40,604 bases of DNA, taken from the NCBI GenBank assembly GCA_028291365.1, contig JAQGIE010000010.1, forward strand, positions 1 through 40,604. Direction: 5' to 3'. The translations under genes were made by a program, and so were the position numbers. The notes beneath the pieces are model-generated. The model searched no databases, was not told the DNA's origin, and saw only the letters and a program-made list of their open reading frames with translations. The DNA comes from Rhodospirillales bacterium (GTDB lineage: Bacteria; Pseudomonadota; Alphaproteobacteria; BOG-932; Roseiterribacteraceae). This document shows positions 17,592 through 39,404 of this stretch, in pieces; positions within the stretch are counted from its first letter, which is position 1, and each line of letters starts with the position of its first letter.

Positions 17592-17666
17592 CGCTGACGA
17601 CACTCCTCGTTTACCCGGCCGCTGCCGGCGACCGTTGCATATCGCTTACAGGCTTGCCGATCCGCC

Positions 17667-17944: not shown

Positions 17945-17960
17945 ATTTCGGAGCGAAGCC

Positions 17961-19465: not shown

Positions 19466-19486
19466 AGCGGCCTAGGCTGTGCGCGA

Positions 19487-19500
19487 TTGCGCCAGATCAA
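19487..19500. promoter_or_regulatory. FixK/FNR-type box upstream of the CBS gene
   Basis: TTGCGCCAGATCAA fits TTG(A/C)-N6-(T/G)CAA. Its centre lies 60 bp before the CBS start, the same distance as the first box from the GNAT gene. A TTAGAT hexamer at 19521-19526 is in the right place for a -10 element. Confidence 0.6.
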
Positions 19501-19553
19501 TGAGGAAGCTGCGCTTTCCGTTAGATGGATAACGCTCAACCCTGGAGGCCAAC

Positions 19554-20790: not shown

Positions 20791-20870
20791 CAATGTGGCA
20801 AGCCAGCACGGACCGTTGTCCTTCGCTCCGCTGGGTAGATCGGCTGCGAGCTGCATCGTGACGAACACGT

Positions 20871-20890
20871 ACCATACAGCGCTGTATGGT
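20871..20890. promoter_or_regulatory. Operator palindrome O1 (perfect)
   Basis: ACCATACAGC/GCTGTATGGT is a perfect 20-bp palindrome between the TetR stop and the Lrp gene start. It is the best copy of a motif found also at 21547, 28458 and 37642. Its form (two 8-9 bp arms around a 2-bp centre) is typical of TetR-family operators. Confidence 0.7.
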
Positions 20891-21546: not shown

Positions 21547-21564
21547 CAATCCAGGTCTGTATGG
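21547..21564. promoter_or_regulatory. Operator palindrome O2 (imperfect), before TetR gene
   Basis: CAATCCAG-GT-CTGTATGG matches the consensus CCATACAG-N2-CTGTATGG at 6 of 8 left-arm and 8 of 8 right-arm positions. It lies between the folD stop and the TetR start. Confidence 0.5.
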
Positions 21565-23092: not shown

Positions 23093-26021
23093 GGAGGCGC
23101 GCTCCCTGCGTGTCGTAGAAGACCGGATCGACCACGCGCGCACTCAAGGTGTTGTGCTCGTAGAACAAGGTCACGATCTCGCCGCGACGATCGAGCCCGC
23201 CTTTGAGCAGGCCGAGCCCGATCGAACGATGCAGCACCGGACTGACACAGGACGAGGTGATGCGGCCGTCGAGCAGCGCCGGCGGCTTCTTGCAGCCGGC
23301 CGGCAGCACATGCGCACCGACCGGCAGCGCACGTTCGGGATCGATACTTTCGAAACCGACCAGGCGAAACCGGTCGGCGCGCAACGCGTCCGGCCGCGTC
23401 AGGGAACGCCGTCCGACGAAATCGCTCTGCTTCTTCGCCGGTACCGCGAAGCCGAGATCGGCCGGGATGGTCGTGCCATCGGTGTCGCTGCCGATGTGGA
23501 TGTAGCCCTTCTCGATCCGCAGTCGTAACCAGGTCTCGATGCCGATCGGCGCCACGCCGAACGCTTCGCCGGCCGCAAACAGCGCTTCCCACAAGGCGGC
23601 GCCCGACGACCAGGCGACGCTGACTTCATATTGGACTTCGCCGGTGAAGCTGACGCGCTGCACGCGCGCCTTCATCCCCGCCACCGTGCCCTCGCGCAGC
23701 TGCATGTGGCCGAACACATCCGGTGCGAGATCGATGTCGGTGCCGGCGCGCTGCAACAGATCGCGCGCCGACGGACCTGCAATCGCGATCGTCGCCCAAG
23801 CCGTCGTGAGGTCGCACACCGCGACCTTCAGCTCGGGCCATTCGCATTGCAGCCAGTCTTCGAACCGGGCCGAGATTGCCAATGCCATGCCGCTGGTTGG
23901 GCTGACGAGAAAACGCGTCGGCGTCAGGCGTGCAAAGACACCGTCATCGATCACCGTGCCGTGCTCGTTGAGCATCAGCCCGTAGCGCAGCTTCCCGGGC
24001 TGCAGACTCGACGCGCTGCCGAGATACATGCGGTCGAGGAAAATTCCCGCGTCGGGACCGCAGACTTCGATCTTGCCCAGCGGCGAACCGTCGAACAAGC
24101 CGACCCCGTTGCGCACCGCGCGCCATTCGCGCGCGATCGCCACCTCCTGGGTCTCGCCGGCGCGGAGATAGAATTCGGGCCGCTGCCAGCCGCCGAAATC
24201 TTCAAAATGCGCGCCGAGCTTCACATGGGCCGCATGGGCCGGCAGGTATTTTCGCGGACGGAACAGGTCGCCGCGCGCCGTGCCCGCGATGGCACCGAAC
24301 GTCACCGGCGTATAGGGCGGCCGGAACGTCGTGGTGCCGACGTCAGGGATCGCCTTGCCAACCGCGTTCGCCAATAGCGCCAGCGCGTTCACGTTGCTGG
24401 TCTTGCCCTGGTCGGTTGCCATGCCGGTCGTCGTGTAGCGCTTGAGCAGCTCGACCGAGCAAAAGGATTCGCGCGCCGCCAATTCAATGTCCGCGCTGGT
24501 GACGTCGTTCTGGAAATCGACCCACTGCTTGCCCCGCGCAAGCGCATCGGGCACGCGCCAGTGCGGCTCGATACGCAAGCCCGCCTCGTCTGCGACCTGC
24601 GGCGGCGCAATGACCACCGCGTCATGCCCCGCCCGGCGCGATGCTTCGACGCCGGCACGTGCGCCTTCGGCAAAACACGTGGCGAGATCGAAGGCGCCGT
24701 TGGCGGCACCTGCCACGATGACTGCCTGCACCGGCAGCGCCGGCCTGAAGCAGGATTGCACCTCGTCGAAGCGCAGCTTTCCGCCCGACTGTGAGAAGAG
24801 ATGCACAACCGGCGCCCAGCCGCCCGCCATCAGCACCGCGTCGCAGGCGACGCGACGGCGCCTGCTGTTGTCGTGCGGGACGATTTCGATCCTGTCGACA
24901 CGCATGCGGCCGCCGGTGTCGGCGATCGTCGCACCTGGGATCAATTCGATGCCGCGGCGCGCGCAGCCCGTCTGCAGCTGCGTATCCGGATGCGAGCGCA
25001 CGTCGACGACGATCGGCTTCGCACCCGCAGCCGCCAGGTCGAACGCAGTCTCGTAGGCCGAGTCGTTGTTGGTGAAGACGACCGGCCGCTGTCCGACCAG
25101 CACCGCATGGCGCTGCAGATAGGCACGCGCCGCGCCCGCCAGCATGATTCCCGGACGGTCGTTGTTGGGAAACACCAACGGTCGTTCGATCGCGCCCGTC
25201 GCCAGCACGACCTGTTTGGCCCGTACGTACCAGATGCGCTGGGCGAGTTCGCCGCCGCTGCAACGTTCGGCCAGCGTGACCAGATTGTGATCGTAATAGC
25301 CGAATGCGGTGGTGCGCGGCAGCACGCGCACATTCGGCAGCGCGGCGAGTTGCGCCGCCATGTCATGCAGGTAGAACGGGGCTGGCCGGTCCTCGATCCG
25401 CCCGCCGTGAAAGGCGCTGTCGCCGCCGAGCTCGTCGCGCTCGTCGACCAGCATCACGCGGGCGCCGCTTTGCGCCGCGCTGCGCGCCGCCTGCAATCCG
25501 GCGGGACCGGCGCCAACTACCAGCACGTCGCAATGGGCGTGACGATGCGCATAGCGATCGGGATCCGGCTCGGTCGGTGCGCGGCCAAGACCGGCGGTGC
25601 GGCGGATCATGCCTTCGTAGAATTTCCACGACGGCAGGAAGAACGCCTTGTAGTAGAAGCCCGCCGGCAGAAAGCGCTGGAACAAGCCCAGCACTGCCTG
25701 CAAGTCGAATTGCAGCGACGGAAAGCGGTTCTGGCTGAAGGCTTCGAGCCCGTCGGTCAACGTCACCTGCGTCGCACGCAGATTCGGCGTCGCGTAGGCC
25801 CCCTTCCCCACCGTCACCAGCGCATTAGGTTCGTCGGCGCCGAAGCCAACGATGCCACGTGGCCGGTGCAGCTTGAAACTGCGCGCGACGAGATGTTCGT
25901 CATTGGCCAGCAACGCCGAGGCCAGCGTGTCGCCCGCGAAACCGGTGAAGGCACGGCCGTCGAAGGTGAAACGCAGCTTTTTGGAACGGTCGATCCGGCC
26001 GCCCTGCGCGAGACGGCTCAT
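23085..26021 (-). CDS. soxA: Sarcosine oxidase alpha subunit
   Basis: SoxA, 978 residues, a normal length for this subunit. The enzyme oxidatively demethylates sarcosine to glycine with H2O2 and passes the methyl carbon to THF as 5,10-methylene-THF. In order: an N-terminal ferredoxin-like domain (LRFTFDGRAFTGFAGDTLASALLAN, residues about 16-40), the NAD-binding Rossmann motif CDVLVVGAGPAGLQAARSAAQSGA near 165-190, the remainder of the pyridine-nucleotide domain with VVLATGAIERPLVFPNND, and a C-terminal glycine-cleavage T-protein-like THF domain from about residue 600 (GVGLFDGSPLGKIEV, GLRYG-like LRYGLMLNEHG, QYEVSV). Overlaps of 4 nt with soxD and 8 nt with soxG indicate translational coupling. 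Confidence 0.95.
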   Translation of the reverse strand: MSRLAQGGRIDRSKKLRFTFDGRAFTGFAGDTLASALLANDEHLVARSFKLHRPRGIVGFGADEPNALVTVGKGAYATPNLRATQVTLTDGLEAFSQNRFPSLQFDLQAVLGLFQRFLPAGFYYKAFFLPSWKFYEGMIRRTAGLGRAPTEPDPDRYAHRHAHCDVLVVGAGPAGLQAARSAAQSGARVMLVDERDELGGDSAFHGGRIEDRPAPFYLHDMAAQLAALPNVRVLPRTTAFGYYDHNLVTLAERCSGGELAQRIWYVRAKQVVLATGAIERPLVFPNNDRPGIMLAGAARAYLQRHAVLVGQRPVVFTNNDSAYETAFDLAAAGAKPIVVDVRSHPDTQLQTGCARRGIELIPGATIADTGGRMRVDRIEIVPHDNSRRRRVACDAVLMAGGWAPVVHLFSQSGGKLRFDEVQSCFRPALPVQAVIVAGAANGAFDLATCFAEGARAGVEASRRAGHDAVVIAPPQVADEAGLRIEPHWRVPDALARGKQWVDFQNDVTSADIELAARESFCSVELLKRYTTTGMATDQGKTSNVNALALLANAVGKAIPDVGTTTFRPPYTPVTFGAIAGTARGDLFRPRKYLPAHAAHVKLGAHFEDFGGWQRPEFYLRAGETQEVAIAREWRAVRNGVGLFDGSPLGKIEVCGPDAGIFLDRMYLGSASSLQPGKLRYGLMLNEHGTVIDDGVFARLTPTRFLVSPTSGMALAISARFEDWLQCEWPELKVAVCDLTTAWATIAIAGPSARDLLQRAGTDIDLAPDVFGHMQLREGTVAGMKARVQRVSFTGEVQYEVSVAWSSGAALWEALFAAGEAFGVAPIGIETWLRLRIEKGYIHIGSDTDGTTIPADLGFAVPAKKQSDFVGRRSLTRPDALRADRFRLVGFESIDPERALPVGAHVLPAGCKKPPALLDGRITSSCVSPVLHRSIGLGLLKGGLDRRGEIVTLFYEHNTLSARVVDPVFYDTQGARLHG

Positions 26022-26299
26022 GGCGTTGTCTCAGCCGGCGCGGCGCCCATTTCGTAGACCTGGGTCACCGCATGCGTGACCGTGTCGCGTTCTACGTTGA
26101 ACCACAGGCCGCAGCCCACGACGTGCCGCCAGCGCTCGCGCAACAGGCCTTTGGGATTGGGCTGGAAGAACAGATAAGCGCTCCATTGTTCGTCGCTGAC
26201 CTGTTCCGGCGGGCCTGGACGTTGCACGTGGCTGCGTCCGCCGCAGGCGAACTCGATTTCCGGACGGACACCGCAAAAAGGACAGTCGAGCAGCAGCAT
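26018..26299 (-). CDS. soxD: Sarcosine oxidase delta subunit
   Basis: SoxD, 93 residues, the zinc-containing small subunit. The four zinc ligands known for the family are found at their standard positions: Cys6 and Cys9 in CPFCG, His59 and Cys63 in RHVVGCGLWFN. Between them is the conserved WSAYLFFQPNPKGLLRERW. It lies 11 nt after soxB and overlaps soxA by 4 nt. Confidence 0.95.
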   Translation of the reverse strand: MLLLDCPFCGVRPEIEFACGGRSHVQRPGPPEQVSDEQWSAYLFFQPNPKGLLRERWRHVVGCGLWFNVERDTVTHAVTQVYEMGAAPAETTP

Positions 26300-26310
26300 G
26301 TTCGTACCGT

Positions 26311-27561
26311 TCAGTGCGCGATGCCGGCCGCGGCCGCTTCGTCGATCATCGCGCCGCTGGTGAAGCGCGCGAATCCGAACGGCTTGGCCAGCGGATGCGG
26401 ATCGTCATGGGCGATCGTATGGGCGAAGGTCCAGCCGCCGGCCGGGATCGCCTTGAACCCGCCGGTGCCCCAGCCGCAATTGATGTACAGGCCCGGCACC
26501 GACGTTCGGTCGATGATCGGCGAACTGTCGTGCACGACGTCGACGATGCCGGCCCATTGCCGCATGAAGCGCAGGCGTCCGACCGACGGAAACATGTCGA
26601 CCATCGCCGCAACCGTCTTTTCGACGGTAGGAAAGTTGCCGCGCTGCGCGTAGGACGCGTAGAGGTCGAGCCCGCCGCCGATCACCAGCTCACCTTTGTC
26701 GGACTGGCTGAAATACATGCCGGTCGCGGGCGACAGCACGACCGTGTCGAGCATCGGCTTGACCGGCTCGGAGACGAAAGCCTGCAGCGCGTAGCTGTTC
26801 ACCGGCAGTTCGATTCCGGCCTTGGCCGCCAGCGCCGAGCTGTGCCCAGCGACCGCGATCGCAACTTTGGGCGCCGCGATCGTGCCTTTGCTGGTGACCA
26901 CGCCCGAGATGCGGCCGGCCGCGGTCTCGAAGCCCAGCACTTCGCAATTCTGCACGATGTCGACACCGCGCGCGGCGGCGGCGCGCGCATAACCCCAGGC
27001 GACCGCGTCGTGCCGCGCCGAGCCGCCGCGCGGCTGGTTCATGCCGCCGTAAATCGGAATCCGCGCCGATGGCGAGGCGTCGATGATCGGCACCAGTTTC
27101 TTGACTCGGGCCGCGTCAAGGATTTCGGCGTCGATGCCGTTCAGATGCATCGCCGACGCCCAGCGCGACACGTTTTCCATGTCGTGGCGCGAATGCGCCA
27201 GCAGGATCATGCCGCGCTGGCTGAACATGATGTTGTAGTTGAGCGTACGACTGAGCTTCTCGTAGAGCTTGACCGAGAAATCGTAGAAGGCGGCGCTTTC
27301 GGGAAAGAGGTAATTGGACCTGATGATGGTCGTGTTGCGGCCGGTATTGCCGCCACCGATCCAGCCTTTTTCAAGCACCGCGACGCGCCGCAGCCCGTGA
27401 TTTTCCGCCAGGTAATAAGCGGTCGCGAGCCCGTGCCCGCCGCCGCCGATCACGATCGCGTCGTACGAAGCCTGCGGCTGCTCGACGCCCCAATTCGCCT
27501 GCCAACCGCGATGACCGTTGAGCCCGTGGCGCAGCAAAGCTGCCAACGAATAGCGCTGCAT
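26311..27561 (-). CDS. soxB: Sarcosine oxidase beta subunit
   Basis: SoxB, 416 residues, the catalytic subunit of heterotetrameric sarcosine oxidase. It binds FAD, where sarcosine is oxidised, and covalent FMN, which passes electrons to oxygen. The FAD motif AIVIGGGGHGLATAYYLAE is near residues 35-53, with the ADP-binding acidic strand end VLEKGWIGGGNTGRNT after it. RHDAVAWGYARAA around His184 is the conserved covalent-FMN attachment segment. The C-terminus has YINCGWGTGGFKAIPAGG. Its ATG overlaps the purU stop by one base, so translation is coupled. Confidence 0.95.
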   Translation of the reverse strand: MQRYSLAALLRHGLNGHRGWQANWGVEQPQASYDAIVIGGGGHGLATAYYLAENHGLRRVAVLEKGWIGGGNTGRNTTIIRSNYLFPESAAFYDFSVKLYEKLSRTLNYNIMFSQRGMILLAHSRHDMENVSRWASAMHLNGIDAEILDAARVKKLVPIIDASPSARIPIYGGMNQPRGGSARHDAVAWGYARAAAARGVDIVQNCEVLGFETAAGRISGVVTSKGTIAAPKVAIAVAGHSSALAAKAGIELPVNSYALQAFVSEPVKPMLDTVVLSPATGMYFSQSDKGELVIGGGLDLYASYAQRGNFPTVEKTVAAMVDMFPSVGRLRFMRQWAGIVDVVHDSSPIIDRTSVPGLYINCGWGTGGFKAIPAGGWTFAHTIAHDDPHPLAKPFGFARFTSGAMIDEAAAAGIAH

Positions 27562-28424
27562 CAGCGGAACACCACGGTCTTGTTGCCGTTCAGCAGCACG
27601 CGATTCTCCACGTGCCACCGCACCGCACGCGCCAGCACCACCGATTCGACGTCGCGGCCGAGTTCGACCAGCGTGTCGGGCGTAGCGTTGTGATCGACGC
27701 GCTGCACCTCCTGCTCGATGATCGGACCTTCGTCGAGATGTTCGGTCACGTAATGCGCGGTGGCGCCGATCAGCTTCACACCGCGAGCATGCGCCTGATG
27801 GTACGGCTTGGCGCCCTTGAAGCTGGGCAGGAATGAATGGTGGATGTTGACGATGCGGCCGGCATAGTCGCGGCACATGTCGGTCGACAGGACCTGCATG
27901 TAGCGTGCGAGCACGATCAGATCGATCTTTTCGGCGTCGACGAGGTCGCGCAGCCGCTGTTCCTGCACCCGTTTGGTCTCGGCGGTGACCGGCATGTGAT
28001 GGAATGGAATGTCGTGCCAGGCGGCGAGCTGATAGAAGTCGCGATGGTTCGAGACGACGGCCGGGATGTCGACCTTCAACGTGCCGCTCGACCAGCGATG
28101 CAGCAGGTCGTTCAGGCAATGGCCGAATTTCGACACCATCAGCAGCACGCGCGGACGGTGCCTTGTGTCGGTGAGCCGAATCGTCATGCCGAACCGGTCG
28201 ACCGACGGCGCCAGCAACAGGTCGATCTCGCTTCTTTCCAACGTGCGGGGGCTGGAAAACCGGATCCGCATGAAGAACAGGCCGGTCGAACGGTCGTCGA
28301 ACTGCGCGCTGTCTTCGATGTTGCAACCGGCCTCGAACAAGGAACCGGTGACCGCCGCAACGATGCCGGGCTGGTCGGGGCAAGTGATGGTCAGCACGAA
28401 CTCGCTGGCAGGCACGCTGGACAC
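27561..28424 (-). CDS. purU: Formyltetrahydrofolate deformylase
   Basis: PurU, 287 residues. It hydrolyses 10-formyl-THF to formate and THF. The N-terminus is an ACT domain (FVLTITCPDQPGIVAAVTGSLFEAGCNI). The C-terminal formyltransferase-fold domain has LLMVSKFGHCLNDLL, AVVSNHRDF, MQVLS, VNIHHSFLPSFKGAKPYHQA and IGATAHYVTEHLDEGPIIEQ. The start is taken as GTG 28424 with GGGGAG 6 nt upstream; no ATG fits. It is first in the operon with soxBDAG-folD and would return THF to sarcosine oxidase while disposing of one-carbon units as formate. An operator palindrome lies 34-51 bp upstream. Confidence 0.93.
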   Translation of the reverse strand: MSSVPASEFVLTITCPDQPGIVAAVTGSLFEAGCNIEDSAQFDDRSTGLFFMRIRFSSPRTLERSEIDLLLAPSVDRFGMTIRLTDTRHRPRVLLMVSKFGHCLNDLLHRWSSGTLKVDIPAVVSNHRDFYQLAAWHDIPFHHMPVTAETKRVQEQRLRDLVDAEKIDLIVLARYMQVLSTDMCRDYAGRIVNIHHSFLPSFKGAKPYHQAHARGVKLIGATAHYVTEHLDEGPIIEQEVQRVDHNATPDTLVELGRDVESVVLARAVRWHVENRVLLNGNKTVVFR

Positions 28425-28457: not shown

Positions 28458-28475
28458 CCATACAGCTCTGTATGG
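28458..28475. promoter_or_regulatory. Operator palindrome O3, before the purU-sox operon
   Basis: CCATACAG-CT-CTGTATGG has both 8-bp arms perfect. It sits in the leader or promoter of purU. A further left half-site, CAATACAG, follows at 28482. It shares the arm sequence with O1 exactly. Confidence 0.7.
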
Positions 28476-28504: not shown

Positions 28505-28711
28505 TTACTTCGCGGCGGTCCGCCGTTTCTGGGACGGTTTCGCACCCAGCTTGATCCCGTCCGCCACGCCGCAACGGCGCGGATCGGCGGTGGCGCCGAG
28601 ATCGCCGGTCTTGGGATCGCGGAAACACATCTGGAACGAGCCCATATGCCAGTCGTACTGTCCGACCGCGCGCGTCCGCACGCCCATCTTGGCGAAGAAA
28701 GCGAGCGGGGC
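28505..28711 (-). pseudogene. C-terminal remnant of a gamma-glutamyltransferase gene
   Basis: About 68 residues in one frame resembling the very end of gamma-glutamyltransferases: APLAFFAKMGVRTRAVG, then DWHMGSFQMCFRDPKTG and LGATADPRRCGVADG, close to the family's final GS-x-x-x-DPR segment, followed by a basic tail. Nothing corresponding to the rest of the enzyme (normally over 500 residues) is present; the DUF885 gene ends 34 nt upstream. There is no ribosome-binding site at the internal ATG (28687). I infer a deletion that removed most of the gene. Confidence 0.5.
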
Positions 28712-28744: not shown

Positions 28745-30436
28745 TCAGCCCTGTTGCTGCTGCGCCACCCAGTGTCTGATTGCAAAATCGACGTCGTCGA
28801 GCGGCAGCGCACCCGCGTCGAGGATCGCATTGTGAAAGCCGATCAGGTCGAACCGGGCACCCAGCTTCGCTTCGGCGGCACGGCGCGCGTCGCGCAGGCG
28901 CAGCGGACCGATCGCGTAGGCCAGCGACTGGCCCGGCCAGCATGTGTAGCGCACCGTTTCGGAAAATGCCTCCGCCGGCGATTGCGGCCCGCGTTCGAGC
29001 ATGTAGCTGCGCGCTTTCTCCAGGTTCCAGCCGAACGCGTTGAGGCCGGTATCGACGACCAGACGCGTCGCGAGAAACATCTGCATCAGCAGGCGTCCAT
29101 ATTCGGCGTACGGGTCTTCGTACATGCCCATCTCATAGCCCAACTCGGCGCCGTATTCGGCCCAAGCTTCGGCGAAGGCGTTGAGATACGGATTGCGCCG
29201 CACCAGCGGACGCGACTCGTCCAGCGTCTGGGTGGCGAAATGCACGTGATGGCCGGGCACGGTCTCGTGCAGCATCAGCGCGGTCGCGACCACCGACACA
29301 CGCTCCTGCGGGTTCGATCCGTTATAGACGTAATAGCCGGCACGATCGCCGTAGGGCAGCGGCGGCTGGTAATAGCCGTAGGTCATGCCCGCTTCGAGTT
29401 CAGGACGCAGCCGCTTCACGTCGGACCTGCCGTAGTCGCGCGTACCGAACAGGCGCGGATAGATCGCCTCGGCCTGCGCCAGCACGGCGCGATAGGTGGT
29501 TTCGATTTCCTCGGGTGTGCTTGTCTTCACCGGCGGTTCGGCCAGCAGATGTTCGAGAAACCGGCGCGCGGTGCCGCTGAATCCCAACCGGCTGCGCACC
29601 GATGCCATGCGCGCTTCGAGTTCGCCAACCAGCTCCAGCCCGGCGCGATGCACCGCGTCGGGCGTCATGTCGAGCGTCGTATTGTGCCGCACCAGCAGCG
29701 CATAGGCATCCTGCCCGCCCGGATACCGGCCGAGCCCGACCGCATCTTCGCCGGGCGGCACCAGCGCGGCGTAGTCGCCGGTGAAATAGGCGCGCAGTTT
29801 TTTCAGCGCCGGGCGAATACGGGTTTCGATCGCGACGTCGGCACCGCCCGCCGCACGCATCAGCGCGGCTTGCGGCAAGCGCGCCAGCCGTTCAGGCGCA
29901 ACGCGCAGATTCTGCGTCAGTGTCGCGTCGAGTCCGTCGAGCAACCGCACGCCGGTTCGATGTGCCGCTTCATGCAGCACGATCCCACGCGCCGCCTGCT
30001 CGCGCAGATTGGCGTCGCAGCCGGCAATCCAGACGCCGTACTGGTCGAGCAGAAGCAGATAGGCATCGGCATCCGGCGCGGTTTCGAACCGGAGATTGCG
30101 GATAATCTCGTGCGCCTGGTTGAGCTGCTTGCCCATCCGGTACGGCGTCACCTGCAGATCGTACCAATGCAGCCCGTCGCGCGCACCGAGCAAGTCGGTC
30201 TCAAAGGTAAGATAGCGGCGCGTCAGCTCGTCTTCGTGCCGAAGGCCCCGCAGCGGCACGAGACGCTGGTGCCAGAAGCGCGCGCGCTCGGCGTCGGCGG
30301 CAACGTCGTCGAAGCGGCACGGCGGCAGGCGGTCGGGCACCCTGCCCTGCAACGCCGCATCGAACACCGAAATCGAGGCGCGATCATCGTACAGCTCGTC
30401 GCCGACCGCGGCGACGGTCGCATCGCGCAAGCTCAT
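28745..30436 (-). CDS. DUF885 family putative metallopeptidase (copy 1)
   Basis: A 563-residue DUF885 protein, a family of putative zinc metallopeptidases with few characterised members. The zinc-site sequence LHETVPGHHVHF (HExxPGHH) is near residue 385. The second conserved block AEAWAEYGAELGYEMGMYEDPYAEYGRL follows, where a glutamate is the likely third ligand. No signal peptide is visible, so cytoplasmic action is likely. The ATG overlaps the stop of the second DUF885 gene by 4 nt. It is the last gene of an operon with an STN-type TonB receptor and an MFS transporter, so cleavage of an imported peptide is a reasonable inference. Confidence 0.85.
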   Translation of the reverse strand: MSLRDATVAAVGDELYDDRASISVFDAALQGRVPDRLPPCRFDDVAADAERARFWHQRLVPLRGLRHEDELTRRYLTFETDLLGARDGLHWYDLQVTPYRMGKQLNQAHEIIRNLRFETAPDADAYLLLLDQYGVWIAGCDANLREQAARGIVLHEAAHRTGVRLLDGLDATLTQNLRVAPERLARLPQAALMRAAGGADVAIETRIRPALKKLRAYFTGDYAALVPPGEDAVGLGRYPGGQDAYALLVRHNTTLDMTPDAVHRAGLELVGELEARMASVRSRLGFSGTARRFLEHLLAEPPVKTSTPEEIETTYRAVLAQAEAIYPRLFGTRDYGRSDVKRLRPELEAGMTYGYYQPPLPYGDRAGYYVYNGSNPQERVSVVATALMLHETVPGHHVHFATQTLDESRPLVRRNPYLNAFAEAWAEYGAELGYEMGMYEDPYAEYGRLLMQMFLATRLVVDTGLNAFGWNLEKARSYMLERGPQSPAEAFSETVRYTCWPGQSLAYAIGPLRLRDARRAAEAKLGARFDLIGFHNAILDAGALPLDDVDFAIRHWVAQQQQG

Positions 30437-32160
30437 GCCGCGAGTTGCGCGATGGTGCGATCGACCTCGGCTTCGACCAGGTTCAGCGGCAAGGCACCCG
30501 GACGCAGCACGGCGTCGTGGAAGCGCCGTATGTCGAACTTCGTGCCCAGCGCGTCGCGCATCCTGGTGCGCAGTCGCATCAGCGCCACGTCGCCGATCTT
30601 GTAGGCCAGCGACTGGGCCGGGATGTCGCAGGAATAACGCACGCTTTCGCTGCGAATCTCGGCGTCGGACATGAACGAGTTTTCGCGCATATAGACGCGC
30701 GCCTGTTCCAGCGACCAGCCCAGCGCGTTCATGCCGGTATCGACGACCAGCCGGCAGGTCAGGAACGCATCCATAACCAGACGACCGAACCGTTCGTCGG
30801 GCAGTTCGTACATGCCCATCTCGCCCGCCAGGGTCGCGGCGTATTCGGCCCAGCCTTCGTTGAAGGCGTTGATGAAGCAATTGGCGCGCAGCGGATGCAG
30901 CCCCTCATTCTCCCACTGCGAGGCGAAATGCAGGTGATGGCCCGGCATCAGCTCGTGATAGTTCAGCGCGCCGAGATTGAAGAGGCCGCGCTGGGTCAGG
31001 TTGCGCGCATTGTAGAGATAGCGTCCGATCGGCTGGTCGGCCTTGGGCGGATCGTAAAAGCCGAACGACATTGCCCCCGCCAGCGAATCCGGCAACGCCG
31101 CAGCATCGTGTCCGGCTTTGGGCTGGAACGAGAAATACGCGCCGAGATGCGGCTTGATCCGTTCGATATAGACGCGAAACAGCCGCGTGACCTCCTCCTC
31201 GTTCGCGGCACGCCAGCGCGGCTGTGCGTCGAGCGACTCGCGCCAGGCCTGGTCGCTGCCGCTGAACCCCGCCTCGGTTCGCGCCGCCTGCATGTCGCTG
31301 CGGATCTGCGCCATCCGGTCAAGGCCCATCGCGTGCACGTCGCGCGCAGTGAGGTCGAGCGTCGTGTGCTGGCGGATCAGCGCCGCATAGATCTCGGGCC
31401 CGTCTCTATACTGCGCCATGCCGACCGTTTCGGGCGCGCGCTGCGCATGGGTTTCGCCGAGCAGCGCAACGAATTCGTCGAATGCGGCGGCGACGTCGCG
31501 CAGGCGCGCAGTGAGTTCGGCCTGGAAGGATGGCGGCACCCGCGCCGGCAGGCGCGCATCCACGACCTGAAGTTCGGCCAGCGCACGTTGCTGCAATCCC
31601 TGCAGCAGCGGCACGGTCTGCACCAGCTGCACTTGCGGCATGTAGGTGCCACCTTCGGCCTGCCCGCGCGTGCGTTCCACCATCTCCCGCACCAGCCGCG
31701 CGAAATCGGCAACGAAGGCGAGATAGCGGTCGAGATCGGCGGCGTCGTGCAGCGCCATCTTCTGCATCGATACCAGCACGTTGCTCAGCACGCCGCCGCC
31801 GCAATAGGGCGTCGGAGCGAACAGGCCGAAGAATCCGACGCCCGCCGGATCGAACACGGTCCCGTACCAATCGTCTTCGCGCGCCCAACGTCCGGCATAG
31901 AGATTGGCGAGCCGCACCGTCAGCGCGAGATCGTGCGGTAGTGACGCGAGATCGAGCTGCGCGATCTCGGCGCCAAGCTTGCGGCCGCGATTGGCCCGGC
32001 GCTGCACCGAATCGAACGAGACGTGAAACAGGGACGGGCGCTGGTTGAGCGCTTGGGCGCCCCATCCCGGCGCTTGCCGCAATTCGCTCCAGGCATCGTC
32101 GACGATGCGCAAAGCGCGTCCGCAATCGTTCGATGGGGCCGCGCCGTGCTGTTCAGTCAT
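30433..32160 (-). CDS. DUF885 family putative metallopeptidase (copy 2)
   Basis: A 575-residue DUF885 protein with the same architecture as its neighbour: NYHELMPGHHLHF as zinc motif, then NEGWAEYAATLAGEMGMYELPDERFGRL, and a shared end region (LVVDTGMNALGW, SLAYKIG, RFHDAVLRPGALPLNLVE). It is clearly a paralogue of the protein encoded next to it but well diverged, so the two may cleave different bonds of one substrate. No signal peptide is seen. ATG 32160 overlaps the MFS stop by 8 nt; an ATG 12 nt upstream is equally open. Neither has a good ribosome-binding site, which fits translational coupling. Confidence 0.85.
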   Translation of the reverse strand: MTEQHGAAPSNDCGRALRIVDDAWSELRQAPGWGAQALNQRPSLFHVSFDSVQRRANRGRKLGAEIAQLDLASLPHDLALTVRLANLYAGRWAREDDWYGTVFDPAGVGFFGLFAPTPYCGGGVLSNVLVSMQKMALHDAADLDRYLAFVADFARLVREMVERTRGQAEGGTYMPQVQLVQTVPLLQGLQQRALAELQVVDARLPARVPPSFQAELTARLRDVAAAFDEFVALLGETHAQRAPETVGMAQYRDGPEIYAALIRQHTTLDLTARDVHAMGLDRMAQIRSDMQAARTEAGFSGSDQAWRESLDAQPRWRAANEEEVTRLFRVYIERIKPHLGAYFSFQPKAGHDAAALPDSLAGAMSFGFYDPPKADQPIGRYLYNARNLTQRGLFNLGALNYHELMPGHHLHFASQWENEGLHPLRANCFINAFNEGWAEYAATLAGEMGMYELPDERFGRLVMDAFLTCRLVVDTGMNALGWSLEQARVYMRENSFMSDAEIRSESVRYSCDIPAQSLAYKIGDVALMRLRTRMRDALGTKFDIRRFHDAVLRPGALPLNLVEAEVDRTIAQLAA

Positions 32161-33454
32161 GCTTTGACTCATCGAGAAGAAGTTTCTTCATGCCGCGCAG
32201 CACCTGCAGGTAGGTGAGCAGCAACAGCGGGGTTGCGATCATGGTGGCGCCGAACAACGCCCAACGCAGCGACTCCGCGCCCGTGGCCGCCGCCAGCGCA
32301 TCGCTGGCGAGCCCGATCGCCATCGGCCCGCCACCCATGCCGATGAAAGCGGCCGAGAACATCACCATCGCCGAGGCGGTGGCGCGCGACGACGGACGTA
32401 CGATCGTCTGCACGGTTGCGGTGATCGGTGCGGTGTAGAGCGAACCGAGCAGTCCGCTGACGCCCGACAGCACATAGGCGAGATCGAGATCGTGCGCGAG
32501 ATACATGCCGGCCTGCGGCACGAAGCCGATCACCGTGCCCCATAACACGATCCGCATCGGCCACAGCGGATGACGCTTCGCCATCCGGTCCGCCAGCAGC
32601 CCGCCGGCCAAGGTGCCGATCAACGTACCGACGCCGCGCGTCGCGGCAATCATCGCGCCAAGCTCGCTGGTGCCGCCGCCGAAACTGCGCTGAAAGAAAG
32701 CGGGCAGCCATTGGCCATGTGCGTAGAGCAGAAACACCGACAGGCCGAAGGCGAAAAAAAGCGGACGAAAGGCCGGGTTGGCCCACAGCTCACCGACGGT
32801 CGAGCGACTGGTTGCGCCCGGGGCGCGAAGCACTTCGGCGTAGCGGCCGCGCGGCGGCTCGCGGAAGGTCAGCAGCAGCAACAGCGACACGAACACGCCC
32901 GGCAGGCCGACGGCCGCAAACGCGGCGCGCCAACCGAACGACTGTTCGAGCCAGCCGCCCAGCGCAAAGGCGGCCATCATCCCGCCGGACGCGCCGACGC
33001 TGTAAATCGCCATCGCGGTCGAACGGCGCGTTGCGGGAAACAGGTCGGCGATCATCGAATGCGATGCGGGCACGCCGCCCGCCTCGCCCGCGCCGACGCC
33101 GATACGCGCGATCAGAAACTGCCAGAAACTTTGCGCCAGGCCGCACAGCGATGCGGCGACGCTCCACACCGCAAGCGATGCGGCCAGGACGAGCTTGCGC
33201 GGATGACGGTCGGACAAGGTGCCCAACGGAATCGCGCAGACCGCGTAGATCGCCGAAAATGCAAACCCCGTCAGCAGCCCGATCTGCGAGTCCGACAGGC
33301 CCAGCTCGGCCTTGATCGGCTGCACCAGGATCGCGAGCAGAAACCGGTCGGCGTAATTGAACCCCATGATCAGGGTCAGCAGCAGCAGCCCGTACCACTC
33401 GACAAAGCTGGGCATGCCGACACGTGCCGTTGTCTCGGACGGCACGTGCGGCAT
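32153..33454 (-). CDS. MFS transporter (spinster-like)
   Basis: A 433-residue major facilitator of the spinster-like type. It has about 12 membrane segments, with GFNYADRFLLAILVQPIKAELGLSDSQIGLLTG at the first loop and the conserved motif GTLSDRHPRKLVL between segments 2 and 3. It starts 14 nt after the TonB receptor stop and overlaps the downstream DUF885 gene. It probably moves the TonB-imported compound from periplasm to cytoplasm, where the two peptidases would act. The substrate is unknown. MPSFVEW, 13 residues in, is an alternative start. Confidence 0.88.
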   Translation of the reverse strand: MPHVPSETTARVGMPSFVEWYGLLLLTLIMGFNYADRFLLAILVQPIKAELGLSDSQIGLLTGFAFSAIYAVCAIPLGTLSDRHPRKLVLAASLAVWSVAASLCGLAQSFWQFLIARIGVGAGEAGGVPASHSMIADLFPATRRSTAMAIYSVGASGGMMAAFALGGWLEQSFGWRAAFAAVGLPGVFVSLLLLLTFREPPRGRYAEVLRAPGATSRSTVGELWANPAFRPLFFAFGLSVFLLYAHGQWLPAFFQRSFGGGTSELGAMIAATRGVGTLIGTLAGGLLADRMAKRHPLWPMRIVLWGTVIGFVPQAGMYLAHDLDLAYVLSGVSGLLGSLYTAPITATVQTIVRPSSRATASAMVMFSAAFIGMGGGPMAIGLASDALAAATGAESLRWALFGATMIATPLLLLTYLQVLRGMKKLLLDESKHD

Positions 33455-33468
33455 GCTTTCGGTACTGC

Positions 33469-35940
33469 TCAGAATTGCACCGCGGCGCGAACGCCAAAGG
33501 TGCGTGGGGGCAGGACCCGGTTGAAATACGGACCGGTCGTCACGTTTGAAAACCCGTTCGCGGCGACGTTGGTGATGTCGTAACTGTCGAACAGATTTTG
33601 GACGAAGAAGGTGAACTGCCAGCTTTTGGATTCGAGGCCGGCGCTGACGTCGAACCGGTCATAGCTCGGCACCGGCAGGAAGGACGCCGGCTTGTTGACG
33701 TTCTCGACCCGCGTCGCGCCGATATAGCGATAGTCGCCGCGCAGCATCAGGTCCCACACCGCGCTGACCGGCATCCGGTAGGTGACGTTCAGGTTTCCGG
33801 TCCATTCCGGCGTATAGGGAAACTTCTCGCCGGCATGATCGAAATTGTTCTGGTCGACATATTTGACGAACTTGGTGTCGGCATAAGACAGCGCGCCGCC
33901 GATGTTGAGTCCGTCGAGCGGCCGCAGCGTCGTTTCCAGTTCGAAGCCCCGCGAGCGGCTGGAGCCGGCATTGTTGATCACCGACGTGTTGATGTTGTCG
34001 ATCTTGGTCAGCGACGTGACCTGCTGGTTGTCGATGTCGATGTAATAGACCGCGGCCCGGATCGAGGCGCGGTTCTGGAAATACGAGCCCTTCCAGCCGA
34101 CTTCGTAGTTGGTCGAGCTTTCGCTGGCGTACGGGATCAGCGCCGATGGTGCCGACGGGAATTTTGGGAAGCCGCCCGCCTTCCAGCCGCGCGAGATGGT
34201 GGCGTAGAGGCGCGTATCCTCGTTCAACGCGTAGGAGATCGAGCCCATCGGCGAGAAGTTGTTGAAGTTCTGCGTACCGGTGGGATTGAACTGCAACAAC
34301 GCCAGCGCCGGTGCATAGCGGCGGCGGAAGCCGCTGATATCGACGATCTCACGGCCATAGCGCAGGCCCGCGGTGAATTCGAAGTCGTCAAACTTGTACG
34401 ACGCCTGGCCGAAGGCGGCGCCGCCGCGGCGCTTCAGCATGATGTCTTCGTTGATCGCGGCATTCTTCAGCAAGGCCGCGTTCCCCGCGGTGAAGGTCTG
34501 GGTGTCGTTGTACCAGGCGAACCGGCGCTGCTCGTGCTCTTCATCAAAGAAGTAGAGACCGCCCATCCATTTCAGCGGACCATCGCCGTCCGATTCCAGG
34601 CGCAGCTCCTGGCTGAACGTGCGCTGGCGCGAATTCAGGTTCCAGTTGGTGCCGGCATAGGTTTCGCCGAACGGGTTGGTGAAAGGCTGCGACAGGTTCG
34701 AGTTGATGCCGTCATTGTCGAGATGAATGTCGGTCTGCGCAAAACGTGCACCGGTGATCGAGGTCAAGGTCGCGCCGCGCAAATTCCACTTCGCCGACAC
34801 CATCACGCCCGACACACGCTGGGTGTCCTTCGGGTGATATTCGCCGAACGTGTCGTAGCAGTTGCAGCCAGCCGGCACGCCGATACCGGCTTCGTTATAG
34901 TGCCGGTAGTACATGTCGCCGGTCACGTTCAGTTCGAAATCGTCGTTAGGGCGCCACACGACCACGGGCCGCACTGCGTAGGAACGCGACGGAGCCTGAT
35001 CGGTATGCAACGTCTGGTTCGTGAGATACCCGTCGGTGTTGCGCACTTCGGCCGAGATGCCTGCGAACAAGGTTCCGCTGACCGGGCCGCGCACCGCGAC
35101 GCGCGCGTGCGACGTGTTTTCGGACCCGTATTCGACCAGCGCCGAACCTTCGAAATCCGGCCCCGGTTTCCTGGTCACAATATTGAGCGCGCCGCCTTCC
35201 GTATTACGGCCGAACAGCGTTCCCTGCGGGCCGCGCAGCACTTCGATCCGGTCGGCGTCGAGAAAGTCGAGATTGAAACCCAGGCTCGACTGGTAGACGC
35301 CGTCGACATAGACGCCGACCGCCGGTTCGAGACCGGCGTTGAAGCCGACGCCGCGCATCGTGATGTAGGTGAAGTCGCCCGACTGCGCCGCGATATTGTT
35401 CTGCGCGAAATACAGACCCGGCACGCGGCCGGCGAGATCGGTCGAGCTGCGGATGTTGGCCGCGTCGAGCTGCGCGCCGCTGATATTGCTGACGGCCATC
35501 GGCACGTCGATCAGCCGCTCTTCGCGTTTACGCGCCGTTACCACCAGCTCTTCCGGCGGCGCTTCGGCGCGCGCCACACGCGGCGGCGCGACGACCGGCG
35601 CTGCGGCACCCGCACGCGCAGGGCGTACGACGACGCTTTTCGCGTCGGTGAACTGGAATTGCAGATTGCTGTCGCGCAGCAATTCACGGAGCGCGTCGGC
35701 GGGTTCGAACGTGCCGCTCAGCTTCCCGCTGCGCAGATCGCGCGGAATCCCCGGTGCCAGCACCACCTGCAGATCGGCCTGGCGGCCGAAGGCAAGCAAG
35801 GCGGTCTCGATCGACTGCGGCGCGATTTCGAATTTCGCCGGTGCCGCCATCGCAACGCCGCCGGCAAACAACATCGCCGTGCCGACCAACAATCCAGCCA
35901 ACGTCCTACGGACGCGCATCCCCGTTCCAGTTCCCGCCAT
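33469..35940 (-). CDS. TonB-dependent receptor with STN signalling domain (FecA-type)
   Basis: An 823-residue TonB-dependent receptor. In order: a signal peptide ending AMAAP (about residue 33); an STN domain at about 35-105 (FEIAPQSIETALLAFGRQADLQVVLA, then FEPADALRELLRDSNLQFQF); a TonB-box-like EELVVTARKREERLIDVP; a plug with ITMRGVGFNAGLEPAVGVYVDGVYQ and IEVLRGPQGTLFGRNTEGGALNIVT; and a barrel ending VRAAVQF. STN domains pass ligand occupancy to a FecR anti-sigma protein, and such a gene with its ECF sigma lies directly upstream. AGGAG precedes the ATG. A small inverted repeat (GACCGG-N5-CCGGTC, 35960-35976) lies in the 80-bp gap after fecR. The barrel is of the general type seen for siderophore, oligosaccharide or peptide receptors, so the ligand is open. 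Confidence 0.92.
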   Translation of the reverse strand: MAGTGTGMRVRRTLAGLLVGTAMLFAGGVAMAAPAKFEIAPQSIETALLAFGRQADLQVVLAPGIPRDLRSGKLSGTFEPADALRELLRDSNLQFQFTDAKSVVVRPARAGAAAPVVAPPRVARAEAPPEELVVTARKREERLIDVPMAVSNISGAQLDAANIRSSTDLAGRVPGLYFAQNNIAAQSGDFTYITMRGVGFNAGLEPAVGVYVDGVYQSSLGFNLDFLDADRIEVLRGPQGTLFGRNTEGGALNIVTRKPGPDFEGSALVEYGSENTSHARVAVRGPVSGTLFAGISAEVRNTDGYLTNQTLHTDQAPSRSYAVRPVVVWRPNDDFELNVTGDMYYRHYNEAGIGVPAGCNCYDTFGEYHPKDTQRVSGVMVSAKWNLRGATLTSITGARFAQTDIHLDNDGINSNLSQPFTNPFGETYAGTNWNLNSRQRTFSQELRLESDGDGPLKWMGGLYFFDEEHEQRRFAWYNDTQTFTAGNAALLKNAAINEDIMLKRRGGAAFGQASYKFDDFEFTAGLRYGREIVDISGFRRRYAPALALLQFNPTGTQNFNNFSPMGSISYALNEDTRLYATISRGWKAGGFPKFPSAPSALIPYASESSTNYEVGWKGSYFQNRASIRAAVYYIDIDNQQVTSLTKIDNINTSVINNAGSSRSRGFELETTLRPLDGLNIGGALSYADTKFVKYVDQNNFDHAGEKFPYTPEWTGNLNVTYRMPVSAVWDLMLRGDYRYIGATRVENVNKPASFLPVPSYDRFDVSAGLESKSWQFTFFVQNLFDSYDITNVAANGFSNVTTGPYFNRVLPPRTFGVRAAVQF

Positions 35941-36020
35941 GCCCCGCTCCTGTTCGCGTGACCGGTTGATCCGGTCTGAAGCTGAGACGCTCGGCCCGCG
36001 CCGATCCGAACTGGCGAACC

Positions 36021-37091
36021 TCAGAATCCGTCGCGGCGATGGGCAAGCACGATGGCCCCGTCACCGTCGACCGTGGCGCGGATCGGAAACGCACTTTCCA
36101 GCGCGCGCGTCCAGCTGCCGAGATCGTTCACTGAAATCGTGCCGGTGTAGCGAATGTCGGCGACGCTCGCGTCGGCGAAACGAACCGGAAGCGCGACGTA
36201 GCGCCGGAGGTCGGCAATCACCGCCCCCAGCGGACGATTGAGATAGCTCGGCCGTCCTTCGCGCCACGTCACCGCGATCGACGGATCGACCGTGCGGATC
36301 GCACTCAGCTCGTCGCGATAGGAAACTTGCTGGCCGGGCGCGAGACGCGCGATCTGGCGCGGCTCGCGGCGCGGCGGTTCGTCCTTGCTGCTGGCATAGG
36401 GCGGCGCCACCAGCACCGCCCCTTGCAGCAAGGTCACGTCGACGCCGCTGTCGGTGAGCTGCACGTCGAATTCGGTGCCGACGGCGCGAATTTCGCCGCC
36501 GCGCGCACGCACGATGAAAGGCCGCGCGGCATCGTGCGCGACGTCGAACAGCGCCTGCCCGCGCATAAGCTGGACGACGCGTTCACGCCGTTCGAACTTC
36601 GCCACCAGTTGCGAGTCGGCGTCGAGCAGCACGCTCGATCCGTCCGGCAAGGTGACGCGCTTCTGCTCGCCCTGGGCGGCGGCGTAGTGCAGCTCGACCG
36701 GAGACGGCGCCCAGATTTCTTCGCGCCACCAGCCCGCGACCGCGAGAAGCAGCAGGCACGCCGCCAGCGCCATCCACGGGCGGTGCGTCGCGCGCGTCGT
36801 GGCCCCAAGACTTGTCCGGCCGAGGCTGGTGCGCCCCAAAAGAAAACGCCCGCGGCGTCTTTCCTCCGCCGCGGGCAGCGCCGTCCAGAAACGCAGCAGC
36901 TCGTCATAGCGGCGCTGTCGTTCCGGCGACGCGTCGAGCCATGCACGCCAATGCGCCCTGGCGGCGGGGTCCGCTTCGGGGGCCTGCAGGCAGGCAAGGC
37001 AGTCGGCGAGCGAAGTCGCCAGCGGATCGCGTGAATCGTCCATCAGTGCAGATGAGACGTTCGGCGACGCCGGATCCGAACTCGCTGTCAT
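36021..37091 (-). CDS. FecR family anti-sigma / sigma-regulator
   Basis: A 356-residue FecR-type inner-membrane regulator. The N-terminal cytoplasmic part contains the DUF4880-like segment (CLACLQAPEADPAARAHWRAWLDASPERQRRYDELLRFW). One membrane segment follows near 105-121 (PWMALAACLLLLAVAGWW). The periplasmic FecR domain shows VTLPDGSSVLLDADSQL, RGQALFDVAHDAARPFIV and VGTEFDVQL. The C-terminal STN-like end interacts with the receptor in characterised systems. A short tandem repeat (GRTSL twice) lies before the membrane segment. The ATG overlaps the ECF sigma stop by 4 nt. Confidence 0.9.
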   Translation of the reverse strand: MTASSDPASPNVSSALMDDSRDPLATSLADCLACLQAPEADPAARAHWRAWLDASPERQRRYDELLRFWTALPAAEERRRGRFLLGRTSLGRTSLGATTRATHRPWMALAACLLLLAVAGWWREEIWAPSPVELHYAAAQGEQKRVTLPDGSSVLLDADSQLVAKFERRERVVQLMRGQALFDVAHDAARPFIVRARGGEIRAVGTEFDVQLTDSGVDVTLLQGAVLVAPPYASSKDEPPRREPRQIARLAPGQQVSYRDELSAIRTVDPSIAVTWREGRPSYLNRPLGAVIADLRRYVALPVRFADASVADIRYTGTISVNDLGSWTRALESAFPIRATVDGDGAIVLAHRRDGF

Positions 37092-37624
37092 GCATGCTCC
37101 GCTTCGAGCCGCGCGGCGCAGCTGGCCAGCGCCCGCAGCGCGTAGCGTCGCGCCATCACTTCGGACAGGTTCATGCGCCGTCCGATCTCGGCAAAGGAAC
37201 AGCCTTCGATGCGGAACAGAAGCAGCGCCTCACGCTCCTTCGGCGCCAGCTCTTCCAGCATGGCGGCGAAGCGTTCGAGATCGTCGCGCGCGAGAAACGC
37301 GGCTTCCGGCGATGGGTGCGTGCCCAGCGCCTCGGCCAGCAGCGGCTCGTCGGCATCGACGGTGCGCCAGCGGCGACGGCGGCGAAGCTGGTCGACGGCG
37401 AGATTTCCGGCAACGCGATAGAGAAAAGCGCGCGGATTGGCGACCGTGCCTTCGCGCATCGCCTGCACCAGGCGCAGGTAGGATTCCTGGGCGACGTCGT
37501 TCGAATCCTGCTCGCAGCCAAGACGCGCGCGCAGAAAAGCGATCAGCCCTAGCCGCTCGTTCTTGCAGACACCATCCTCGCCGCGACGCGGCTTGGCGAC
37601 ATCCAGTGCGATCAGGCTTCGCAT
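37088..37624 (-). CDS. ECF-family RNA polymerase sigma factor (FecI-like)
   Basis: A sigma-70 family ECF factor of about 178 residues. Region 2 includes DVAQESYLRLVQAMREG and PRAFLYRVAGNLAVDQLRRRRR. Region 4 includes LEELAPKEREALLLFRIEGCSFAEIGRRMNLSEVMARRYALRAL. With fecR and the STN receptor it forms a cell-surface-signalling set: ligand binding outside would release this sigma to transcribe the receptor operon. The start is taken at MRSLIAL (37624). An in-frame ATG at 37645 lies inside the operator palindrome, so repressor binding would cover the leader or the start itself. Confidence 0.88.
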   Translation of the reverse strand: MRSLIALDVAKPRRGEDGVCKNERLGLIAFLRARLGCEQDSNDVAQESYLRLVQAMREGTVANPRAFLYRVAGNLAVDQLRRRRRWRTVDADEPLLAEALGTHPSPEAAFLARDDLERFAAMLEELAPKEREALLLFRIEGCSFAEIGRRMNLSEVMARRYALRALASCAARLEAEHA

Positions 37625-37641
37625 CTGCGCGCTCGAACATC

Positions 37642-37659
37642 CCATACAGTCCTGTCTGG
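37642..37659. promoter_or_regulatory. Operator palindrome O4, before the ECF sigma operon
   Basis: CCATACAG-TC-CTGTCTGG has one mismatch to CCATACAG-N2-CTGTATGG. It lies 18-35 bp upstream of the chosen sigma start, in a 57-bp gap after the M20 gene. Confidence 0.6.
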
Positions 37660-37702: not shown

Positions 37703-38878
37703 CTAGCCTTTCGGCAGCGCGGTTTCGGCCAGCTTCGCCCAGTAACTCGCACCAGTCGGTAGAACCGCGTCGTTGAAATCATACGACGGGTTGTGAAGTC
37801 CGTTGGCGTGACGGCCTTCGGTGCCGTTGCCGATCAGCATGTAACTGCCTGCCTTCTTTTCCAGCATGAACGCGAAATCTTCGCCAGCCATGCAGGCGGA
37901 CGCGACCTCGTGCAGCGCATCGGCGCCGACCAGCGCAGCAGCTGCGCGGCGCGCCAGGGCGACGGCGCCGGCTTCATTCACGGTGGGCGGAATGTTCAGC
38001 TGATAGTCGATCGCGACCGTCGCACCGTGCGTCGCGGCGATGCCGGTGACGATCTCGCCGAACAGCGCGTGAACCTGGTGGCGCGCCGCCTTGCTCGTTG
38101 TTCGCACGGTCCCGCGAAACCACGATGTCTCCGGAATGATGTTGTGCGCGCTGCCCGCCTGCAGCTGGGTGACGCTGACCACCACCGCTTCTGCCGGATC
38201 GATCCGGCGGCTGACGATCGATTGCAGCGCACCGACGATCTGCGAAGTGACAAAGACCGGATCAACGCCTTTATGCGGCTGGGCAGCGTGACAGCCTTTG
38301 CCGTGCACGGTGACTTCGAACTGGTCGGTGGCGGCCATCATCGTGCCGTCACGGATCGCAAAATGCCCTTCCGGCAGGCCGGGCCAGTTGTGCATGCCAT
38401 GCACGGTCTCGACCGGGAAGCGCTCGAACAGCCCGTCGGCCAGCATCGCCTCGGCTCCGCCCAGCCCCTCTTCGGCAGGCTGGAAGATGACATAGACTGT
38501 GCCGTCGAAGTTGCGCGTTTCGGCAAGGTAGCGGGCGGCGCCCAGCAGCATCGTCGTGTGCCCGTCATGCCCGCACGCATGCATGCGGCCGGGATTGTTC
38601 GAGCGGTAGGGAACGTTGCCCTCTTCCTCGATCGGCAAGGCGTCCATATCGGCACGCAGGCCAATGGCACGGCGAGAATTGCCAGCGCGGATCACGCCGA
38701 CCACGCCCAGCCTGCCGACCCCGGTAACAACCTCGTCGACCCCGAAGGCGGCAAGCTGCTGCGCCACCAACGCTGCCGTCTCGCGTTCTTCCATGCCCAG
38801 TTCTGGATTGGCATGAATGGTCCGCCGCCAGCGCACCATGTCGTCGGCGAAATGGGCGATGCGATTGTAGACGGGCAT
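37703..38878 (-). CDS. M20 family amidohydrolase / N-acyl-amino-acid hydrolase
   Basis: A 391-residue M20D-type metal-dependent amidohydrolase (hippurate hydrolase, N-acyl-amino-acid hydrolase group). Metal-site motifs are GLRADMDALPIEE, the HACGHDGHTTMLLGAA cysteine/histidine cluster, FQPAEEGLGGA, and a late MAGEDFAFMLE with a C-terminal LHNPSYDFND. The dimerisation-domain segment VHGKGCHAAQPHKGVDPV is present. Such enzymes split N-acyl or N-aroyl amino acids into acid and amino acid. AGGAG lies about 10 nt before the ATG. It ends 43 nt before operator O4 and is co-oriented with the sigma-TonB-peptidase operon, but has no operator copy of its own. Release of an amino acid such as sarcosine is a hypothesis. 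Confidence 0.88.
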   Translation of the reverse strand: MPVYNRIAHFADDMVRWRRTIHANPELGMEERETAALVAQQLAAFGVDEVVTGVGRLGVVGVIRAGNSRRAIGLRADMDALPIEEEGNVPYRSNNPGRMHACGHDGHTTMLLGAARYLAETRNFDGTVYVIFQPAEEGLGGAEAMLADGLFERFPVETVHGMHNWPGLPEGHFAIRDGTMMAATDQFEVTVHGKGCHAAQPHKGVDPVFVTSQIVGALQSIVSRRIDPAEAVVVSVTQLQAGSAHNIIPETSWFRGTVRTTSKAARHQVHALFGEIVTGIAATHGATVAIDYQLNIPPTVNEAGAVALARRAAAALVGADALHEVASACMAGEDFAFMLEKKAGSYMLIGNGTEGRHANGLHNPSYDFNDAVLPTGASYWAKLAETALPKG

Positions 38879-39330: not shown

Positions 39331-39404
39331 TGGAGCGGGTGAAGGGAATCGAACCCTCGTCGTAAGCTTGGGAAGCTTCTGCTCTACCATTGAGCTACAC
39401 CCGC
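39331..39404 (-). tRNA. tRNA-Gly (anticodon CCC)
   Basis: A complete 74-nt tRNA with encoded CCA. The acceptor arm begins GCGGGTG and ends CACCCGC followed by T and CCA. The D arm is GCTC...GAGC, the anticodon loop is TTCCCAA (anticodon CCC, reading GGG), and the T arm is AGGGTTCGATTCCCT. Its 3' 46 nt are duplicated at 14350-14395. Confidence 0.95.

Follow-up and report, generated by a model that had tools for sequence, protein, structure and literature searches.

Genes of the receptor and sarcosine operons

The locus described here lies in a window of 40,604 nucleotides, the whole stretch of DNA that was analysed, from contig JAQGIE010000010.1 of a Rhodospirillales bacterium (assembly GCA_028291365.1). 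It consists of two adjacent operons on the minus strand, one with a TonB-dependent receptor and two DUF885 proteins and the other with a sarcosine oxidase. The original prediction had placed six genes in the first of these (extracytoplasmic function (ECF) sigma factor, FecR, TonB receptor, major facilitator superfamily (MFS) carrier and two DUF885 proteins), and we found them in this order, all on the minus strand; their reading frames are open and their matches in Pfam significant. The FecI-like ECF sigma factor (37088-37645; Sigma70_r2 1e-11, Sigma70_r4_2 3e-13, sigma70-ECF superfamily above cut-off) is overlapped by 4 nt by a FecR-type anti-sigma/sigma regulator with a DUF4880 N-terminus (36021-37091; FecR 1e-20). 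After a gap of 80 nt comes the TonB-dependent receptor with an N-terminal STN domain (33469-35940; barrel 8e-46, Plug 4e-16, STN 2e-4). At 21.7 bits the STN domain scores below the Pfam cut-off of 28.4, but it has the right position and adjoins ECF and FecR genes; the top NCBIfam match of the receptor, TonB-siderophor, is also below its cut-off. The MFS inner-membrane carrier (32153-33454; MFS_1 8e-52) follows after 14 nt and overlaps by 20 nt with DUF885-A, a putative cytoplasmic metallopeptidase (30433-32172; 7e-106), which in turn overlaps by 4 nt with its paralogue DUF885-B (28745-30436; 9e-107; 32% identical to DUF885-A). DUF885-B starts at ATG 30436, an open reading frame (ORF) from TTG 30880 being over-extended.

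The operon beside DUF885-B had been predicted to handle sarcosine, and profile searches bear this out. It reads purU-soxB-soxD-soxA-soxG-folD-tetR on the minus strand, with all four genes of the heterotetrameric sarcosine oxidase (soxB, soxD, soxA and soxG) in a single operon. PurU, a formyltetrahydrofolate deformylase (27561-28424; TIGR00655), and the oxidase subunits SoxB (beta; 26311-27564; TIGR01373) and SoxA (alpha; 23085-26021; TIGR01372) all exceed the cut-offs of their models. SoxD, the small zinc-binding subunit (26024-26311, ends approximate), was recognised by inspection of its translation (MLLLDCPFCGVRPEIEF...), and SoxG (gamma; 22502-23092) matches Pfam SoxG at 6e-9 and TIGR01375 with an E value of 9e-30, below the cut-off of the latter. 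FolD, a methylene-tetrahydrofolate (methylene-THF) dehydrogenase/cyclohydrolase (21582-22505; 6e-59), precedes a TetR-family regulator (20911-21516; TetR_N 2e-9), and an Lrp/AsnC-family regulator (20314-20856, minus strand; AsnC_trans_reg 2e-12) lies next to it.

A palindromic operator shared by both operons

A palindrome common to the receptor and sarcosine operons had also been predicted, and it is present before both. The sequence CCATACAGNNCTGTATGG occurs exactly at 28458-28475, before purU-soxBDAG-folD, and at 20872-20889, before the lrp-type gene. It recurs with one mismatch at 37642-37659, in the promoter and 5' end of ecf (CCAGACAGGACTGTATGG on the minus strand), and with two mismatches at 21547-21564, before tetR. 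Each of these four TetR-type operators stands directly upstream of a gene start, so that tetR and its presumed targets all have the palindrome in their promoters. No further site with up to two mismatches was found in the 4.37-Mb genome, where the next best match has three, and a reversed control pattern gave none. With four sites before gene starts and none elsewhere, the receptor and sarcosine operons look like one local regulon. The annotated ATG of the ECF gene (37645) is overlapped by the palindrome and the real start is therefore probably ATG 37624. Among the five genomes of the family that were examined, no other had the palindrome sites. In more distant bacteria CATACA-N4-TGTATG recurs before soxB, tetR, receptor or amidohydrolase genes in the clusters of Sphingopyxis, Erythrobacteraceae and Solimonas described below, and it was not found with up to one mismatch in those of Tsuneonella and Roseateles.

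The TetR regulator has 20 orthologues in 13 other genomes, at 36-49% identity over nearly the full length. A soxB gene lies within 15 kb of 15 of the 21 tetR genes, the window's own included, where 0.24 would be expected, and most of the remaining orthologues adjoin DUF885 genes, TonB receptors and S9, S15, M19 or M81 peptidases. We also found five plasmid loci selected by TetR alone (40-44% identity; two in Aminobacter and one each in Pseudosulfitobacter, Tistrella and Paracoccus) in which the palindrome lies in the promoter of tetR or in that of the immediately preceding gene, an arrangement that connects the operator with this TetR subfamily. Together with the orthologues and operators this makes it likely that the protein encoded at 20911-21516 binds the palindrome. 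The neighbours on these plasmids are FAD oxidoreductases, TRAP/ABC transporters or nucleoside hydrolases and not the sox-peptidase set. In view of these loci we dropped the idea of a TetR exclusive to peptide clusters; the subfamily is broader than this system, and TetR alone is insufficient to define the substrate.

A locus of Sphingopyxis panaciterrae with this TetR and operator (positions 1-19901 of that locus) carries a DAO oxidase, a prolyl oligopeptidase, an S15 X-Pro peptidase, M81 and M19 peptidases and a D-serine-dehydratase-like enzyme, and looks like a locus of D- and imino-peptide catabolism.

Recurrence of putative DUF885 peptidases with sarcosine oxidase

Clusters that combine soxB, a TonB receptor and DUF885 were found in Tsuneonella, Roseateles, Solimonas (n=3), Sphingopyxis (n=3) and a metagenome-assembled genome of Erythrobacteraceae, and such sox-peptidase clusters span Alpha-, Beta- and Gammaproteobacteria. 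In these sister clusters soxB usually comes with soxA and purU and often with folD, together with a varying set of MFS carriers, S9 peptidases, a Xaa-Pro-dipeptidase-like amidohydrolase, gamma-glutamyltransferase (GGT), M19 and M81. The first genome set was gathered solely by similarity to DUF885-A. In these genomes and that of the window, soxB lies within 25 kb of 11 of 13 DUF885 genes of the A/B clade versus 2 of 35 other DUF885 genes (Fisher p 2.4e-7, a value that ignores kinship and thus treats related genomes as if they were independent). In a held-out set of Sphingomonadaceae genomes chosen by the DUF885 profile, a DUF885-A-like gene lies within ~20 kb of soxB in 3 of 4. The linkage is looser in Sphingopyxis panaciterrae, where the DUF885-A-like gene is apart from soxB and another DUF885 gene is ~11 kb from it. 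Across the class many genomes have soxB (147 of 385) and few have DUF885-A, so a class-wide search gives no direct measure of linkage, and we counted it on genomes chosen by DUF885 or TetR. A plasmid search with DUF885-A returned only distant relatives of <40% identity.

A trace of the same association remains in the window itself. Between DUF885-B and purU lies a pseudogene remnant of a GGT C-terminus (28550-28690, minus strand), which in tblastn is 61% identical over 46 aa (E 2.5e-12) to the GGT adjoining DUF885 in a Sphingopyxis sox cluster. The remnant is too short to match a Pfam profile and is recognised by tblastn. The ancestral cluster of the window probably carried that GGT.

The companions of DUF885 could also be read as a system for general scavenging of oligopeptides or proline peptides, in which sarcosine-containing peptides would not be the chief food and SoxBDAG would either be induced by imino acids derived from peptides or act on some other N-substituted amino acid. 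In its favour, proline-type peptidases of the S9, S15 and Xaa-Pro-dipeptidase-like kinds abound in the sister clusters, and at several TetR loci DUF885 or S9 peptidases are present and soxB is missing. However, SoxB and SoxA exceed the cut-offs of sarcosine oxidase models, and purU and often folD, which are needed for the N-methyl carbon, accompany sox in most clusters. We therefore consider this explanation unlikely, though worth keeping in mind.

Relatives of DUF885-A in actinobacteria (36-38% identity) adjoin a very large ORF, an ABC exporter, an oligopeptide-binding protein and a DAO-family oxidase. Our guess is that the very large ORF encodes a nonribosomal peptide synthetase, and these loci are perhaps biosynthetic clusters with a DUF885 enzyme acting on the product.

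The DUF885 enzymes

Both DUF885 proteins match the DUF885 profile (PF05960) across their whole length, with 356 and 359 bits against a gathering score of 32.4. In alignments the motif HExxPGHH is invariant (H406, E407, P410, G411, H412 and H413 in DUF885-A), with a conserved NEGWAEY downstream. An AlphaFold2 (AF2) model of DUF885-A with a mean predicted local distance difference test (pLDDT) score of 84 has three uncharacterised DUF885 proteins as its nearest solved folds (Z 28-39). The next folds are M32 carboxypeptidases, M3 oligopeptidases and ACE (M2), at Z 9-12 over ~320-400 residues, although such Z values are also found among helical proteins generally. The model is thus supportive, without being proof, of a metallopeptidase-like fold, and Pfam assigns DUF885 to the Peptidase_MA clan, as noted in a study of zinc sites (PMC12572635). 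Putatively, DUF885-A would work like a canonical HExxH peptidase without being classed as one. By eye the N-termini of DUF885-A and -B have no obvious signal peptide, which fits hydrolysis in the cytoplasm after import by the MFS carrier.

A proposed regulon for N-alkylated peptides

What can be read at the level of sequence are the genes, the operators, the association of TetR with its operator and the recurrence of peptidases with Sox. From these we propose, with a probability of about 0.6, that the window encodes a regulon with two tiers of control, through which the bacterium would use N-alkylated (sarcosine-containing) peptides. TetR would repress three units through CCATACAGNNCTGTATGG, namely ecf-fecR-tbdt-mfs-duf885A-duf885B, purU-soxBDAG-folD-tetR and lrp, until an inducer, which may be sarcosine or a different N-methyl amino acid, relieves the repression. 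The STN-type receptor, FecR and the ECF sigma factor would add a surface signal upon binding of peptide outside the cell. The peptide would then pass the outer membrane by the TonB receptor and the inner membrane by the MFS carrier, and the two cytoplasmic DUF885 metallopeptidases would cut bonds that resist ordinary peptidases, assisted elsewhere by proline-type peptidases. Oxidation of the freed sarcosine by SoxBDAG would yield glycine and methylene-THF, the latter being converted to formate by FolD and PurU.

Supply of sarcosine from betaine or creatine was considered and rejected, as we saw no betaine/dimethylglycine demethylase or creatinase among the genes of the window and the annotated genes of the clusters, in which part of the ORFs are annotated. 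Since Sox, FolD and PurU serve to process an N-methyl group, no such demethylase or creatinase is seen and peptidases are the recurrent companions, the simplest common substrate would be sarcosine-containing or N-alkylated peptides, possibly nonribosomal. The original prediction, with hydrolases that are peptidases and a ligand linked to sarcosine, is supported in this respect by the shared operator, the conserved co-localisation of DUF885 and soxB in unrelated bacteria, the proline-type peptidases of the sister clusters and the metallopeptidase-like fold. Its surface-signalling part did not prove to be core.

Several observations weigh against our proposal. Searches of the sister loci gave no homologue of ECF or FecR, the pair being found only in the window. 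The DUF885-A-like enzymes of Bradyrhizobium and Microbacterium belong to genomes that have no close SoxB, and in Aminobacter, Tistrella and Paracoccus the TetR subfamily adjoins FAD-oxidoreductase genes unrelated to peptides. The metal motif of DUF885 is HExxPGHH with a different spacing and not the canonical HExxH, and the open literature that we searched held no DUF885 enzyme with a known substrate.

Conservation of the gene set, suggested as a check of the original prediction, is accordingly partial: TetR, the peptidases and Sox recur in other bacteria and appear to form the conserved core, and ECF and FecR were seen in none of the sister loci searched. An STN domain was likewise in none of eight sister receptors tested. 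The window thus looks like a conserved TetR-peptidase-Sox regulon with an added surface-signalling layer. This bears also on iron acquisition by a peptidic siderophore, whose ferric form the hydrolases would open. ECF/FecR/STN receptors of the FecI-FecR-FecA kind would be the classical equipment for it, and the sub-threshold TonB-siderophor match of the receptor points the same way. We regard this reading as improbable, because the common operator controls sarcosine oxidation and one-carbon genes and the sister clusters searched lack the signalling proteins.

An N-acyl sarcosine or related small amide, from which DUF885 or an M20 neighbour frees sarcosine, is a further candidate ligand. An M20 amidohydrolase gene lies just upstream at 37703-38878, and the literature searched assigns no substrate to DUF885. 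This gene ends upstream of the palindrome and has none before it; it is only a candidate member of the operon. M20 relatives numbered 0 in the first locus set and only one in a later set, whereas genuine peptidases of multiple families turn up repeatedly in the sister clusters, and we consider such a ligand improbable.

Should N-alkylated peptides be the food of the regulon, as we propose, the window would give part of the answer to how bacteria break down and reuse N-methylated peptides, which resist ordinary peptidases and include many antibiotics. An intracellular TetR above a sigma factor that senses the outside would be an unusual demand for two signals for one food. For DUF885, a widespread family with three solved but uncharacterised structures, the link to sarcosine oxidase and TetR gives a function that can be tested, the cutting of N-alkylated peptide bonds. 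One may speculate further that the clusters in Alpha-, Beta- and Gammaproteobacteria form an undescribed class of TetR regulon for importing and eating N-methylated nonribosomal peptides with D-amino acids, comparable to actinomycin or cyclosporin, in which DUF885 enzymes would be the peptidases of N-alkylated bonds, with the window as a sigma-gated version; this is a tentative idea that we would not bet on. We found no description of this gene combination in the literature, and nothing relevant on N-methyl peptide degradation or a sarcosine-TetR regulon, which is weak evidence as the search covered open-access texts only.

Comparison with known systems

With its ECF sigma factor, FecR and TonB receptor bearing an STN domain (below the Pfam cut-off), the receptor operon resembles FecI-FecR-FecA. 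It differs in the MFS carrier and two DUF885 genes downstream and in that its sigma gene has a TetR operator in common with sarcosine oxidase. The closest published parallel is with the isopeptidase clusters of lasso peptides such as astexin and sphingopyxin, which combine a receptor, a sigma/anti-sigma pair and a peptidase for a peptide ligand (PMC9266682). Such an architecture, serving a self-made peptide, could in principle explain the window. However, its peptidases are DUF885 proteins and not S9 isopeptidases, and TetR links them to sarcosine oxidation. No maturation domain (transglutaminase-like protease or asparagine-synthetase-like cyclase) was seen among the window genes scanned, a short precursor not having been searched for, and we rejected a lasso-peptide cluster as extremely improbable.

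The mlrABCD cluster for microcystin combines peptidases with an MFS carrier; mlrA encodes a CPBP protease and M81 is the MlrC family. The window shares putative peptidases and an MFS carrier with it, and the Roseateles sister cluster has M81 and beta-lactamase-family genes. Among the window genes scanned, in contrast, there was no CPBP, M81 or beta-lactamase-family domain, and the TonB receptor, DUF885 and sarcosine oxidase are additional. Dedicated control of sox genes is known from Bacillus thuringiensis, where the locus is under SoxR/Sigma54 (PMC4941409). The sox genes of the window also appear to be under dedicated control, but through what looks like a TetR operator they are coupled to peptide uptake and to peptidases, and the clusters differ further in that no betaine/dimethylglycine demethylases were seen.

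Other features of the window

A 39-nt direct repeat of 74% identity (35977-36015 before the receptor and 37047-37085 at the start of fecR) was considered as a sigma promoter and rejected, being at chance level for a 40-kb self-comparison. Upstream of the M20 gene lies a tRNA-Gly(CCC) gene (39331-39404), and near the contig end there is an ORF for a UvrA-like ABC ATPase (78-2726). A second set of genes at 4103-14255 comprises an amine oxidase, an MFS carrier, a TonB receptor, UbiD, an aldehyde dehydrogenase, a UbiX-like flavoprotein and an AraC regulator, and looks like a separate system of aromatic or alkenoic acid catabolism.

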